Positions 13,453-51,615 of a DNA stretch of 64,000 bases are shown here, one piece after another. This DNA comes from an uncultured Clostridia bacterium. Lineage in GTDB: Bacteria; Bacillota; Clostridia; Oscillospirales; UBA644. The stretch is taken from NCBI GenBank assembly GCA_948443805.1, contig CAOJUB010000007.1:1-64000 (forward strand), read 5' to 3'. The notes under the pieces are model-generated. The model had not been told where the DNA came from. It searched no databases and was given only the letters and a program-made list of their open reading frames with translations. Position numbers and translations under genes: made by a program. Every line of letters begins with the position of its first letter. Position 1 is the first letter of the stretch.

Positions 13453-16226
13453 GAAATCATATTTTTGTAAAGGGCGCAAGGGAAAACAATTTAAAGAATG
13501 TGGACCTGGAGATCCCCCGTGACAAGCTGATTGTCTTTACAGGCCTTTCGGGGTCGGGAAAATCATCTTTGGCGTTCGATACGATTTATGCCGAAGGGCA
13601 GCGTCGGTATGTGGAATCGCTATCTTCTTATGCGCGCATGTTTCTTGGACAGATGGAAAAACCAGATATCGATTATATCGAGGGGCTTTCTCCCGCTATT
13701 TCCATCGATCAGAAAACAACTTCGAAAAATCCCCGGTCTACAGTCGGAACAATTACGGAAATCTATGATTATCTCCGTCTTTTGTATGCCCGGATCGGCG
13801 TGCCGCACTGTCCGGTCTGCGGGGTCGAAATCCGGCAGCAGACGATTGACCAGGTCGTTGACCGGATCATGGAATATCCGCAGGAAACAAGAATTCAGGT
13901 GCTGGCTCCGGTTGTTCGCGGCCGGAAGGGCGAATATCAGAAAACATTTGCCGATCTGAAAAAAAGCGGTTATGTCCGGGTACGTGCCGACGGGATTATT
14001 TATGATCTGCAGGAAGATATTCCGCTGGATAAAAATAAAAAACATTCGATCGAAGTCATTGTCGACCGGCTGGTTATCCGGGAGGGGATCGAAAAGCGGC
14101 TGGCTGATTCCTGTGAGACGGCGGCAAAACTGTCGAAAGGGCTGATTATGGTTCTAAACACCGGAAATGAGGAAGAGCAGACCTTTTCGCTGCGTTATTC
14201 CTGTCCGGAACACGACGTCGGTATCGAGGAACTGACCCCCCGGATGTTTTCGTTCAATAATCCGATGGGCGCCTGCAAAAATTGTTCCGGACTGGGTTTT
14301 ATTCATACCATTGATCCGGAGCTGGTCATTCCGAATAAAGATCTCAGCATTGCCAAGGGCGCGATCGTGGCTACCGGGTTTGGCAGCCCGATGACTTCGC
14401 CCTATGTCCACCGGGCGTTCGGCAATATTTTGAAAAAATACGGCGGATCGTTTTCCAAACCGGTAAAAACGCTTAATAAAGAAGCGATTCACGAAATTTT
14501 ATATGGAAACGAAGAATTTGAAGGCGTGATTCCGAATGTGGAGCGCCGGTATAAAGCAACCAACAGCATGGCGATTCGGATGGAGATCGAACGCCTCATG
14601 TCGGATAAGCTCTGCGAGGACTGTCACGGGGCGAGGCTGAATGAATTGGCCCGGGGCGTGACGGTCGGAAAATTGAATATTTTTGAATTGACCGAACTGT
14701 CGGTAACCGATGCGCTGGCGTATGTCAATGCCCTTCACTTGACGGGAAAAGACGCGATGATTGCCGACCAGATTCTGAAGGAAATCCGTTCCCGACTGGG
14801 CTTTTTGCAGAGCGTCGGGCTGGATTATTTAACGCTTTCCCGGTCTGCGGGCACGCTATCGGGCGGCGAAGCGCAGCGGATCCGGCTCGCCACGCAGATT
14901 GGCTCTTCCCTGATGGGCGTTTTGTATATTCTGGATGAACCGAGCATCGGGCTGCATCAGCGTGACAACCAGCGTCTGCTGGATACGCTGAAACACCTGC
15001 GGGATCTCGGCAATACCTTGATTGTTGTGGAACATGACGAGGATACCATGCGGCAGGCCGATTATATTGTTGACGTCGGTCCGGGCGCGGGGGTTCACGG
15101 CGGAGAGATTATCGCACAGGGAACTTTAGACGATATTGTCGCCTGTGAGAAATCTTTGACCGGACAATATCTTTCCGGCCGCCTGAAAATTGAAATTCCG
15201 GAAAAAACGCGGCCGCTCAGCGACCGGTTTCTTACAATAAAGGGCGCGCGGGAAAATAATCTGAAAAATATCGACGTGAAAATTCCCCTTTGCGTGTTTA
15301 CCTGTGTGACCGGGGTTTCCGGTTCCGGAAAATCGTCCTTGGTGAATGAAATCCTCTATAAGACGCTGATGATCCATGTCAATCAGTCGCATATGGTTCC
15401 CGGCGATCACGACTCTGTCGAAGGGTTGGAACAGGTGGATAAGGTTGTTGCGATCGATCAGAGCCCTATCGGCAGAACGCCGCGTTCGAATCCGGCGACC
15501 TATACCGGCATGTTTACGGAAATCCGCGAGCTGTTTGCAAAAACGGTTGACGCCAAGGCGCGGGGGTATACCAGCGGACGGTTTTCCTTCAACGTGGAAG
15601 GCGGTCGCTGCGAAGCCTGTTCGGGCGACGGTATTCTGAAAATTGAAATGCACTTTCTTCCTGATATTTATGTTCCCTGCGATGTCTGCGGCGGAAAACG
15701 GTATAACCGCGAAACATTGGATATCAAATTCAAGGATAAGAATATTTATGACGTTTTGGAGATGACGGTGGAAGAAGCGCTGAAATTCTTTGAAAATATT
15801 CCGTCTATTGCAAGAAAGCTGCAAACCCTTTATGATGTGGGGCTGGGCTATATCAAGATCGGCCAGTCCTCAACAACGCTGTCGGGCGGCGAGGCGCAGC
15901 GGGTCAAACTGGCTACCGAACTTTCCAAACGCTCTACCGGCAATACGGTTTATATCCTTGACGAACCGACCACCGGTCTGCATACCGCCGACGTCCATCG
16001 GCTGATTCAGGTACTGAACCGCCTTGTTGACGCGGGGAATACGGTGATTGTGATCGAGCATAATCTGGATATGATCAAAACTGCCGATTATATTATCGAT
16101 CTCGGCCCGGAAGGGGGAGATAAAGGCGGAACCATCGTGGCGCAGGGAACGCCTCGGGAGGTCATTCGGGAAGAGAAATCCTATACCGGGCAATTTTTGA
16201 AACCTTTGTTCGGTCAGGAAGCATAA
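13449..16226 (+). CDS. uvrA: Excinuclease ABC subunit A
   Basis: 925 residues. DNA-damage sensor ATPase of nucleotide excision repair. It has two ABC modules: Walker [10 protein letters not shown] near 32 and GVSGSGKSS near 625, and LSGGEAQR signatures near 472 and 813. Zinc-binding Cys pairs are visible (CPVCG near 121, CKNCSG near 277, CEACSGDG near 720 and [10 protein letters not shown] near 743). The gene starts inside the uvrB stop. A small membrane-protein gene follows 33 bp later and may be co-transcribed. Confidence 0.98.
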
Positions 16227-20987: not shown

Positions 20988-21016
20988 TTGATAATTTTAG
21001 CAGAATATGGTATAAT
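20988..21016 (+). promoter_or_regulatory. Promoter entering repeat copy A
   Basis: TTGATA (20988-20993), 17-bp spacer, TATAAT (21011-21016). The -10 box belongs to the 104-bp repeat; the -35 is unique sequence. It likely drives the lipoprotein-galM unit. Confidence 0.75.
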
Positions 21017-21143
21017 AAAAAACAGCAAGCTGTTCTTGGGAAAAAAGCGTTTCAATCATTCGGTTGAATATCCGTTCCGGATGCCCGCTTTTTTCCGGTG
21101 CGAAATTCACGTGGTATAATAAAAAAACAACAAGTTGTTTTTT
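21009..21143 (+). repeat. 104-bp structured leader repeat, copy A
   Basis: A full 104-bp unit (21009-21112) is followed by the first 31 bp of a second unit (21113-21143). The unit begins ggtataataaa, then has a short palindromic hairpin around aacagcaagctgtt, a second hairpin ttcaatc-attc-ggttgaa, and a block ttccggatgcccgcttttttccgg. The same unit occurs at 42259 and, in tandem, at 50303. It occupies the 5' leader of the lipoprotein gene. No recognised RNA family fits. Confidence 0.85.
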
Positions 21144-42237: not shown

Positions 42238-42266
42238 TTGAAAATGTTACAATTACACGGTATAAT
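42238..42266 (+). promoter_or_regulatory. Promoter entering repeat copy B
   Basis: TTGAAA (42238-42243), 17-bp spacer, TATAAT (42261-42266). As at 21 kb, the -10 is the first part of the repeat. The nearest gene downstream is coaW at 42547. Confidence 0.75.
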
Positions 42267-42366
42267 AAAAAACAACAAGTTGTTCTCTTGAAAAACGTTT
42301 TTCAGCCATCGGTTGAATATCTGTTCCGGATAACAGCTTTTTTTCGGTGTAAAATCAGGTTATTAT
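42259..42366 (+). repeat. Structured leader repeat, copy B (diverged)
   Basis: Begins ggtataataaaaaacaacaagttgttct, continues through ttcagcc-atc-ggttgaa and ttccggataacagctttttttcgg, and ends near a degenerate second -10 (ggttattata at 42358). Unit length is about 99 bp. Hairpin 1 keeps its pairing despite base changes. The rest of the leader to coaW (42367-42546) has nothing I recognise. Confidence 0.8.
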
Positions 42367-45119: not shown

Positions 45120-46121
45120 ATGGCTTTATTTGAAAGTTATGAAAGAAGAATCGGAAAAATTACTCCGGTATTGGAGGAATACGGTTTTTCTAAAATAGAA
45201 GATACCCGTGATTTCTGCCTGGAAAAAGGAATCAATGTCGATGAGATTGTAAAAGGCGTTCAGCCGATCGCTTTTGAAAACGCTGTCTGGGCCTATACGC
45301 TTGGCTGTGCCATTGCGATAAAAAAAGGCTGCAAAACCGCAGCGGACGCTGCTGAGGCAATCGGTATCGGGTTGCAGGCATTTTGCGTTCCCGGTTCGGT
45401 TGCTGAAAACAGAAAAGTCGGTCTTGGCCACGGAAACCTTGCGGCTATGCTGCTTCGCGAAGAAACCGACTGTTTCTGCTTCCTTGCCGGACATGAATCG
45501 TTTGCCGCTGCCGAAGGGGCGATCGGTATTGCGAGAAAAGCGGACAGAGTTCGTACCAAACCGCTTCGTATTATCTTGAACGGCCTGGGCAAGGACGCCG
45601 CCTATATCATTTCGAGAATCAACGGCTTTACCTATGTGGAAACCGATTATGATTTTGCCACCGAGGAACTGAAAGTCGTCCGGGAAGTCAAATTCTCCGA
45701 CGGGGAAAGAGCGAAGGTAAAATGCTACGGCGCCAACGATGTTCTGGAAGGCGTTGCCATTATGAAACACGAAAAGGTGGACGTTTCGATCACCGGTAAC
45801 TCTACTAACCCCACCCGTTTCCAGCACCTGGTTGCCGGAACCTACAAGAAGTGGGCAATCGAAAACGGAAAGAAATATTTCTCCGTTGCTTCGGGCGGCG
45901 GTACCGGAAGAACCCTGCATCCCGATAATATGGCGGCGGGCCCGGCTTCTTACGGCCTGACCGACTCGATGGGAAGAATGCATGGCGACGCGCAGTTTGC
46001 AGGTTCTTCTTCCGTTCCCGCGCACGTTGAAATGATGGGTCTTATCGGCGCCGGCAACAATCCGATGGTTGGTATGACGGTGGCTTGTGCGGTTGCTGTA
46101 GAAGAAGCTGCCAAAGCGTAA
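45120..46121 (+). CDS. GGGtGRT protein, unknown function
   Basis: 333 residues named for the C-terminal motif SVASGGGTGRTLHPDN near 259. Other conserved-looking parts are LGHGNLAAMLLREETDCFCF near 101-120, AGHESFAAAEGAIGIARK near 122, ILNGLGKDAAYIISRINGF near 152 and VDVSITGNSTNPTRFQHL near 220. No transmembrane segment. The family is conserved in anaerobic Firmicutes beside the NifU-like gene, but as far as I know its reaction is uncharacterised. AAGGGAGGAAC gives a strong ribosome-binding site. Confidence 0.88.
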   Translation: MALFESYERRIGKITPVLEEYGFSKIEDTRDFCLEKGINVDEIVKGVQPIAFENAVWAYTLGCAIAIKKGCKTAADAAEAIGIGLQAFCVPGSVAENRKVGLGHGNLAAMLLREETDCFCFLAGHESFAAAEGAIGIARKADRVRTKPLRIILNGLGKDAAYIISRINGFTYVETDYDFATEELKVVREVKFSDGERAKVKCYGANDVLEGVAIMKHEKVDVSITGNSTNPTRFQHLVAGTYKKWAIENGKKYFSVASGGGTGRTLHPDNMAAGPASYGLTDSMGRMHGDAQFAGSSSVPAHVEMMGLIGAGNNPMVGMTVACAVAVEEAAKA

Positions 46122-49179: not shown

Positions 49180-50016
49180 TTATAGCTGGAGCTCAGATTT
49201 CTTGACGGCATAAAGCGTGTCCATGCAGTGCTGGTGAGGAATTCCTCCGCTCCGGCAGTCGAAGATCGTTTCGCCGCAGGACGGAATCAGCCAGTCGGCA
49301 TAATAGGTGAAAAGTTCTCCGGAAATCCATTTGTACCGGAATTTTTTTTGATCGGAGGGATTTTTGATAAACGGTTTCCGGACAAATACATTGAAGGCAT
49401 GAAGCCCGCCGCAAGTAGTATGTTTCTGATAATTTTCAAGAATTTCTTTTCGGAGGTGCGGGGGAATATAATGCAGGGCACCGGAACAGAAAATAATGTC
49501 AAATTCATTGTCAAGTCTGAAATCCAGCATATCCGCCTGAAAGAAATGCACCTCTGTTTTTGCCTGATCGGCGAAGCGTTTTGCTTTTTCAAGCGCGATA
49601 GGAACGGCGTCAAAAGCGGTTACATGATATCCGTTTCTGGCAAAAAATACTGCGTTTTTTCCTTCGCCGCAGGCAATATCAAGCAGCCGGCGCGGTTTTG
49701 TCGGCGGGCAGAGTTTCATGATTTCATAACACATACCGGACGGCTGGAGCCCCCAATAATATCCCTCGGTTGTTTTATAACGTTCTTCATAATCGGTGAT
49801 TTTTCTCTGTTCGGCGGCGTATCCTAAAAGCGAATCGATATTGCAGTGCAGGGCGTTTGCCAGAAGCGGCAGTGTGGAAATATCCGGAAGCGAGTTTCCT
49901 GTTTCCCATTTTGAAACGGCCTGAAAAGAAACGTTTATCTGTTCGGCTAGCTGTTCCTGGGTGAGTCCGTGTTTTTTCCGCAGGATGTAAATATTGTTTC
50001 CGATAAGATGATTCAT
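49180..50016 (-). CDS. XRE helix-turn-helix fused to SAM-dependent methyltransferase
   Basis: 278 residues from the ATG at 50016 (AAAGGGGT about 10 nt upstream; the longer frame to 50226 lacks a site). An XRE domain covers about 3-58 (ILRKKHGLTQEQLAEQINVS, FQAVSKWE). From about 95 comes a class I methyltransferase: motif I RLLDIACGEGKNAVFFARNG near 115, AFDAVPIALEKAKRF, and FDIIFCSGALHYIPPHL near 177, resembling TehB/UbiE-type small-molecule methyltransferases. Such XRE-methyltransferase fusions may sense and modify a toxic metabolite; target unknown. Divergent from the repeat region. Confidence 0.85.
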   Translation of the reverse strand: MNHLIGNNIYILRKKHGLTQEQLAEQINVSFQAVSKWETGNSLPDISTLPLLANALHCNIDSLLGYAAEQRKITDYEERYKTTEGYYWGLQPSGMCYEIMKLCPPTKPRRLLDIACGEGKNAVFFARNGYHVTAFDAVPIALEKAKRFADQAKTEVHFFQADMLDFRLDNEFDIIFCSGALHYIPPHLRKEILENYQKHTTCGGLHAFNVFVRKPFIKNPSDQKKFRYKWISGELFTYYADWLIPSCGETIFDCRSGGIPHQHCMDTLYAVKKSELQL

Positions 50017-50139: not shown

Positions 50140-50168
50140 TTGACAGAAGGGTTTATCTGTGGTATAAT
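50140..50168 (+). promoter_or_regulatory. Consensus promoter of hairpin-chain transcript
   Basis: TTGACA (50140-50145), 17-bp spacer, TATAAT (50163-50168), a perfect consensus pair. The downstream sequence up to the NIF3-like start at 50762 is non-coding. Confidence 0.88.
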
Positions 50169-50176
50169 ATACGCAG

Positions 50177-50300
50177 AAAGCCTTGCATAGCAAGACTTTG
50201 TGGCTTTGCCACTCCGTGCGGAGCACGGCTGCGATATTGAATCACGTCGCAAAGAATGCCAATGCAAATACTATTTGCATGAAGCAAACATTTTTGCTTC
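50177..50300 (+). ncRNA. Chain of consecutive short hairpins (candidate structured RNA or leader)
   Basis: Five back-to-back hairpins: 50177-50199 (10-bp arms, one mismatch), 50200-50212 (gtggc-ttt-gccac), 50214-50228 (ccgtgc-gga-gcacgg), 50262-50280 (atgcaaat-act-atttgcat) and 50281-50300 (gaagcaaa-catt-tttgcttc). None has a strong T-run, so they need not terminate. They start 9 nt after a consensus -10, so they would open the transcript. No known RNA family recognised. Confidence 0.55.
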
Positions 50301-50302
50301 AT

Positions 50303-50562
50303 GGTATAATAAAGAACAGCAAGCTGTTCTTATGAAAAAAACGTTTCAACCATTCGGTTGAATATCCGTTCCGGATGCCCGCTTTTTTCCGGTGCGAAAT
50401 TCATGTGGTATAATAAAGAACAGCAAGCTGTTCTTATGAAAAAAACGTTTCAACCATTCGGTTGAATATCCGTTCCGGATGCCCGCTTTTTTCCGGTGCG
50501 AAATTCATGTGGTATAATAAAGAACAGCAAGTTTGTTCTAAAGAACAGTAAGCTGTTCTTTT
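50303..50562 (+). repeat. Two identical tandem 104-bp leader repeats plus a partial third
   Basis: Units 50303-50406 and 50407-50510 are identical by eye; a third (50511-50562) is truncated and rearranged after its first hairpin (agaacagcaagtttgttct, then agaacagtaagctgttct). Each unit has a TATAAT, hairpin 1 (aagaacag-caag-ctgttctt), hairpin 2 (ttcaacc-attc-ggttgaa) and a ccgga-to-ccgg block. Same family as 21009 and 42259. No spacers, so not CRISPR. From 50563 to 50761 there is only unstructured leader. Confidence 0.93.
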
Positions 50563-50761
50563 GATTGGGAATAAAACTGGGAAACTTGACAGTATGTAAA
50601 GATGAAAAACTTTACAGGTGCGCTGTGGGATAGGAAGAACAGAACGACCGGCGGATTTTTTGCAAACAATGCCTGAACAGGCAAAAATATTGAGGAAACG
50701 GCGGTTGATCCCGGATTGTTTTTTTAGTTGGCCGCCGTAAAAAAGGAGTCAGGAAAATAGA

Positions 50762-51544
50762 ATGAAAATCAAACAGCTGATTGACGAATTAAAATCGTAT
50801 TCTGCCGAGCCTCTTGACGATCGGTATACCTGCGATACCGTAAAGGTCGGCGATCCGGAAAAGGAATTGAGCAAGGTCGCCGTTTCGATGTTTGCCACGC
50901 CCGATGTGGTTCGGGAGGCCGTTGCCTGGGGCGCGGAATTGCTGATTGTGCATGAGCCGACATATTATAATCATATGGATACCGAGCTTCCGTATCCGCT
51001 TGCTCATGAAAAGAAAGCGTTTCTGGAGAAATCCGGTATTACCGTATTCCGGTTTCATGATTATGCGCACCGGATGGATCCGGATCTGATCTGCCGGGGA
51101 GAACTGCATTATATGGAGCTGAAGGGAGAATATCAAAAAGGAGAACACTTTGCTGTAAACCGTTTTATTCTTGAGGAAGAGATGACGGCAAAGGAACTGG
51201 CCTGCCACCTGGAGAAAAAACTGAATCTCCGGCATATCCGGATTGCCGGCTGCTCAGACCGAAAGGGCAGAAGCATTGCCTGCTGTTTCGGAACGCCGGG
51301 GCATGTGGCCGAGGAACTGGAAAAAAACGATTTTGTCCTGACCGGAGAAATCTGCGAATGGAACGAGGGCGAGCTTGCCAGGGATTATGCACAGTTCGGG
51401 TATAATAAAGCGATTCTTGTGATGGGGCATATCGGTTCGGAACGGGACGGCATGGCTCTTCTGCGGGAGATTCTTTGCAAAAAACATCCGGAACTGCAAA
51501 CCCGCTATTTCGAATGCGGGGAGTTATATACATATACGGATTGA
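50762..51544 (+). CDS. NIF3/DUF34-like dinuclear metal protein
   Basis: 260 residues. The NIF3 (YqfO-like) fold has a two-metal site. Ligand regions are LIVHEPTYYNHMD near 61 (first His), FRFHDYAHRMDPD near 96-107 and VMGHIGSERDGM near 221 (GHxxSE motif). Often mislabelled GTP cyclohydrolase 1 type 2; the true activity is unsettled. This copy is the shorter form, without the inserted PII-like domain, and AAAGGAG precedes the ATG. Its transcript probably begins about 590 nt upstream at 50175 and carries the hairpin chain and repeats. Confidence 0.85.
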   Translation: MKIKQLIDELKSYSAEPLDDRYTCDTVKVGDPEKELSKVAVSMFATPDVVREAVAWGAELLIVHEPTYYNHMDTELPYPLAHEKKAFLEKSGITVFRFHDYAHRMDPDLICRGELHYMELKGEYQKGEHFAVNRFILEEEMTAKELACHLEKKLNLRHIRIAGCSDRKGRSIACCFGTPGHVAEELEKNDFVLTGEICEWNEGELARDYAQFGYNKAILVMGHIGSERDGMALLREILCKKHPELQTRYFECGELYTYTD

Positions 51545-51577
51545 AGATTCAAAAAATCTGTTTTATAAAGAAACGGG

Positions 51578-51615
51578 GGCAGGACAGACCGTCTGGTTTG
51601 TCCTGCCTTTTTTTC
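51578..51615 (+). terminator. Terminator after NIF3-like gene
   Basis: 13-bp stem with one G-U (51578-51590 with 51595-51607), then TTTTTTTTC. Confidence 0.92.

Follow-up and report, generated by a model that had tools for sequence, protein, structure and literature searches.

Hairpin modules inserted behind -10 boxes: a candidate promoter-targeting mobile element in an uncultured Clostridia bacterium

The window analysed here, a stretch of 64,000 nucleotides from an uncultured Clostridia bacterium, carries a gene of the DUF34/NIF3 family (PF01784) that is preceded by a long array of hairpins and repeats (Table 1). A sequence-only reading of this array had reported a perfect TTGACA-17-TATAAT promoter at 50140-50168, which is present as claimed and can be extended by the TGG of an extended -10 box. 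The chain of adjacent hairpins that was described directly 3' of this promoter was also recovered, but with six predicted members over 50175-50301 rather than five. Both 104-bp repeats, 100% identical between 50302-50405 and 50406-50509, and the roughly 30 nt of a third copy are likewise found, and the second copy of module B is evidently the product of a recent tandem duplication. Each repeat does bring its own TATAAT, since each starts with TGGTATAATA, and these boxes are real extended -10 sequences. This string is seen six times in the window, against 0.02 expected, with four occurrences in the array upstream of the NIF3-family gene and the others at 21008 and 21112. The order of modules over 50140-50561 is A-B-B, followed by a truncated further module. 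The thermodynamic folding that had been proposed as a check bears out a structured leader, with -185.1 kcal/mol for the 586-nt leader as compared to -148.4 kcal/mol for shuffled sequences (z = -5.8, 0/100 shuffles).

Table 1. Features of the three arrays in the window (positions are those of the window)
Feature	Positions	Strand	Description
Host promoter	50140-50168	+	TTGACA 50140-50145, 17-nt spacer, TATAAT 50163-50168; extended -10 TGG
Box 1	50160-50169	+	TGGTATAATA; 5' junction of the array
Module A	50170-50301	+	Multi-hairpin; near-identical copy in the same genome at G000:C9:16692-16821
Box 2	50302-50311	+	TGGTATAATA, without -35
Module B, copy 1	50312-50405	+	Hairpin AAGAACAG-CTGTTCTT and three-way junction; closing stem is an A-tract/T-tract
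Box 3	50406-50415	+	TGGTATAATA
Module B, copy 2	50416-50509	+	Identical to copy 1
Box 4	50510-50519	+	TGGTATAATA
Third module, truncated	50520-50561	+	Two short hairpin units
DUF34/NIF3 family gene	50762-51544	+	PF01784; 3' of the array
Second array, promoter	20988-21017	+	TTGATA, 17 nt, then box TGGTATAATA
Second array, module B	21018-21121	+	Regenerated box at 21112-21121
Third array, promoter	42238-42267	+	TTGAAA, 17 nt, then box CGGTATAATA
Third array, module B	42268-42355	+	Diverged

With regard to the surroundings of the array, the divergent gene on the minus strand (49180-50006) reads, by inspection only, as an HTH-methyltransferase fusion, and a strong terminator-like hairpin of 16 pairs followed by a T run lies directly 3' of the NIF3-family gene (51575-51610). 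Further upstream, an ORF at 45120-46121 contains a conspicuous SGGGTGRT motif and by inspection resembles the family named for this motif.

What is not visible from the window is that the stretch belongs to a repeat dispersed throughout its own genome, where it matches 56 places at E<=1e-3. In this genome of 1.81 Mb on 35 contigs, iterated profile searches of the matching loci yielded 62 modules, grouped into 41 arrays; since copies were located by searching, 62 is probably an undercount from which some diverged copies are missing. Two kinds of module can be told apart, A of about 130 bp (50170-50301 in the window) and B/C of about 94 bp (50312-50405), and the arrays combine them in orders that include B, A, AB, BA, ABB, BABB and BABA. 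A crude ORF test placed a co-directional ORF downstream of 33 of 40 arrays. The genes behind the arrays share no functional theme, encompassing NIF3, amino-acid kinase, DegV, PGA_cap, Fe-ADH, LysR, GGDEF, MgtE, IspD, hydrolase, MatE, amidohydrolase, beta-lactamase-like and alpha-galactosidase genes. The suggestion of an unusually long leader survives in part, as a structured and probably transcribed leader is likely at this locus, but a leader specific to NIF3 is not, given that the same modules precede unrelated genes; their presence in front of LysR, MgtE, IspD, DegV, MatE, GGDEF, amino-acid kinase and other genes does not indicate a stand-alone RNA either.

With the source genome as the sole one of its genus, 19 genomes of the same family gave no convincing match to these elements, and the NIF3 relatives in the family genomes reach about 30% identity at best. 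No match to the stretch was found in phage and plasmid collections. A scan with the motif at the start of module B returned four matches; a match in Pedobacter, the only one looked at, lies in apparent coding sequence and is not the element.

The position of the modules relative to promoters follows a fixed geometry. Leading modules start 1 nt 3' of a -10 box, while the -35 box is supplied by unrelated flanking DNA; in the source genome the similarity between copies starts at the box and the flanks are unrelated. In a fixed-geometry test, a box matching at least 5/6 positions stood directly in front of 28 of the 39 leading modules, and 20 of these 28 also had a -35 of at least 5/6 at exactly 17 nt, as compared to none of seven internal boxes and 0.5% of random positions. 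The idea of a promoter array is retained only for the extended -10 boxes themselves: among the seven well-preserved internal boxes tested in this genome, no -35 scored better than 3/6. The 3' end of a module reads ...TTCA(TG), after which comes a further box, and at the far end of an array this box has often decayed. The repeated boxes have the appearance of insertion junctions that were regenerated. The 3' box shares variant letters with the 5' box in 4 of 13 cases in this genome (shuffled mean 0.9; 33/5000) and in 11 of 28 in another genus, g13 (shuffled mean 5.6; 7/5000), figures that are indicative since related arrays are not independent. Such sharing fits target duplication or an exchange from box to box. 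Five of the 41 arrays are devoid of a convincing upstream promoter. Two of these consist of modules directly behind stop codons (G000:C1:197716-197809 and G000:C12:26031-26119), which might serve as terminators.

The modules also share a conserved fold. The 35 distinct B/C modules have in common a hairpin and a three-way junction whose closing stem is formed by an A-tract and a T-tract. Across them, 93.7% of cells are paired and changes on both sides of a pair number 110, against 40.3 in shuffles (0/500), a signal that disappears when partners are shifted by one column. The B and C sub-types differ in sequence and keep the fold, and module A presents compensatory changes in two hairpins of its automatic consensus. 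Judged from these alignments, the module structure is under selection, although covariation alone cannot separate RNA from single-stranded DNA as the folded form.

Direct comparison of filled and empty promoters was possible in genus g13, where G025, G048, G066 and G108 carry elements and G082 is almost free of them; copies number 16-23 per genome when counted by search rows that include short fragments. One orthologous promoter holds 3, 2, 2 and 1 units in related species. Two pairs of loci offer an empty site. In the first, TTGAAC-17-TATAATA is common to G066 (L186, empty) and G108 (L170, two units), and the L170 element begins right after TATAATA and ends in ATGGTATAATA. In the second, G048 reads ...TTATTGTGGTATACTGTTTTCCGGCAATG (L364), whereas G025 reads ...TTATTGTGATATAATA, one unit and then ATATGCTATGATATTTCCGTTTCCGGCAATG (L194). 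Both pairs break exactly at the -10 box, with a box on both sides after insertion, and the two boxes of the filled alleles differ from each other (TTGTATAAT/TGGTATAAT in L170, TGATATAAT/TGCTATGAT in L194). Two units also separate the alleles of a third pair, L172/L168, the shorter of which keeps one end hairpin and a box. The elements thus appear to move, at least in genus g13, with a presence/absence pattern that is compatible with gain or loss. The end hairpin and box that stand alone at the L168 promoter (G048:C6, around position 15703) are either left over from an element or represent its ancestor in minimal form. At each end of a g13 unit, the box pairs with an opposing arm to form a hairpin, and where the box reads TACAATA (L192) the opposing arms match this variant. 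This suggests that the substrate is single-stranded DNA in folded form.

The same design extends to other members of the order. Two boxes spaced by 75-105 nt were detected in 15 of 197 genomes of the order, in 10 genera and often in multiple copies, with no match in the reversed control. In a sample of 399 genomes of the phylum, seven matched the pattern, namely the source genome, one genome of the order already counted and five others; only the first two had more than one match, and as the five single matches compare with three single matches in the reversed control, the pattern appears to be at chance outside the order. Several of the sequences matched by the pattern are unrelated to those of the window and nevertheless follow the same plan of box, hairpin, larger structure and box, sometimes with a further unit. 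Of 23 leading boxes from other genera, 15 have a -35 of at least 4/6, against approximately 11% expected at random positions with the best of three spacings taken, and the -35 boxes at these arrays are weaker than those in the source genome. The occurrence of several unrelated sequence families with one design suggests repeated origin or rapid turnover, and elements of the same design across the order point to mobile elements that target promoters and belong to a kind not yet described.

Taken as a whole, the stretch is probably an array of small non-autonomous mobile elements lodged in the -10 box of a sigma-A-type promoter, the box being their site of insertion or recombination. The ends of modules A and B/C and of the g13 unit are by inspection not mutual reverse complements, and terminal inverted repeats are hence lacking; together with the single orientation, the box at both ends and the joining of modules through boxes, this argues for the box as the recombining sequence. 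Insertion would split the host DNA at the -10 box and leave a box on both sides, so that an extended -10 box would close each hairpin module of 90-130 bp and the host -35 would still have a -10 at a distance of 17 nt. With the box itself as target, only one orientation would arise, and the spare box could accept further modules, building mosaic tandem arrays. The gene presumably stays expressed, its mRNA gaining a stable structured 5' leader whose first nucleotide would lie some 6 nt inside the module; there may also be weak firing from the spare extended -10 boxes. If elements transpose in this species, our best guess for the mechanism is that matching -10 boxes exchange strands, the module being present as single-stranded DNA in folded form.

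Other explanations account for some of these observations. The modules could be attenuator-like cis-regulatory RNA leaders, spread by duplication and kept for regulating the genes behind them, with the box carried along in a promoter-leader cassette. The strong covariation in B/C modules, the terminator-like pattern of the A-tract/T-tract stem in module B and the location at the start of transcription units agree with such a role, which is nonetheless quite improbable: the genes behind the modules are functionally unrelated, the upstream promoter DNA including the -35 is not common to the copies, and copy number varies freely at one promoter. Moreover, an Rfam search of the stretch gave nothing above the gathering score and only sub-threshold noise, and the -10 that forms a hairpin arm in g13 would be absent from an RNA starting downstream.

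Within the mobile-element explanation, a specific mechanism to be considered is single-strand transposition by a Y1 transposase of the IS200/IS605 or REP type, with the -10 box as cleavage site or target. The elements do have subterminal hairpins, insert in a given orientation on the 3' side of a fixed target and lack terminal inverted repeats, and in g13 the hairpin arms that are complementary to the box have a likeness to guide sequences. However, no Y1_Tnp domain (PF01797) was found in the source genome or in the five g13 genomes, while control genomes were positive, which makes this mechanism unlikely. An ordinary MITE mobilised by a DDE transposase, with an AT-rich target duplication of 8-10 bp and promoters over-represented through selection, would explain why box variants are common to both ends above chance; it is very improbable, as neither family presents terminal inverted repeats on inspection and insertion in random orientation would not yield one orientation and a -35 at exactly 17 nt at most arrays. 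Going beyond the window, a tentative proposal, which could well hold, is that of a class of selfish elements in at least 10 genera of one order, comprising several unrelated sequences, which use the extended -10 box as an integration site and regenerate it, and which are mobilised neither by Y1 nor by a classical inverted-repeat transposase, but by a new recombinase or through strand exchange between the boxes of folded single-stranded DNA.

Several known repeats resemble these elements in part. REP sequences and BIMEs with their RAYT (Y1) transposases are short palindromic extragenic repeats that occur in composites and follow a single-strand hairpin logic. BIMEs have REPs in alternating orientation (PMC2817692), whereas the modules of one array here all run one way, in genomes of the source organism and g13 that are devoid of Y1_Tnp. 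Correia repeat enclosed elements (CREE) of Neisseria are also small, dispersed, hairpin-forming elements upstream of genes that can enter the mRNA; they have inverted-repeat ends and often insert at TA, and only 15 potential Snyder promoters were counted in a strain with 113 CREE (PMC2649163). Inspection against this description found neither the inverted-repeat ends nor the TA target in the present elements, which instead have a box at both ends, an orientation that follows the promoter and, at most arrays, the -10 as insertion point. The BOX elements of Streptococcus offer an architectural likeness only, with mosaic repeats built of modules, internal copies that vary in number and a predicted secondary structure; the accessible part of their description relates their TIRs to an IS and reports no modules joined at -10 boxes (PMC3049150). 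Prokaryotic MITEs with sigma70-like promoters are non-autonomous and can bring promoter sequence along (reviewed in PMC10969869), as do the elements described here, which differ from them in lacking terminal inverted repeats and in having a promoter box as target. In the literature searched, which was essentially open-access, repeats that target the -10 box were not described.

A promoter with an insertion close by is in most cases damaged or rewired. An element that splits the -10 box and restores it could enter a large number of promoters with their -35/-10 pairs preserved, and each insertion would add a structured leader, which would amount to both a safe-site strategy and a source of variable 5' leaders, as well as to a natural system for promoter-specific DNA insertion.

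Two further arrays of the source genome have an unusual layout. At G000:C27:3801-4308 (L063), two divergent arrays stand head-to-head at a distance of about 110 bp, and both have a -35/-10 of their own. At G000:C10:51225-51320 (L080), a short hairpin of about 21 bp (AAAGCACAGTAAACTTGTTCT-like) is present in five tandem copies between the box and the B module, and this small hairpin multiplies on its own.
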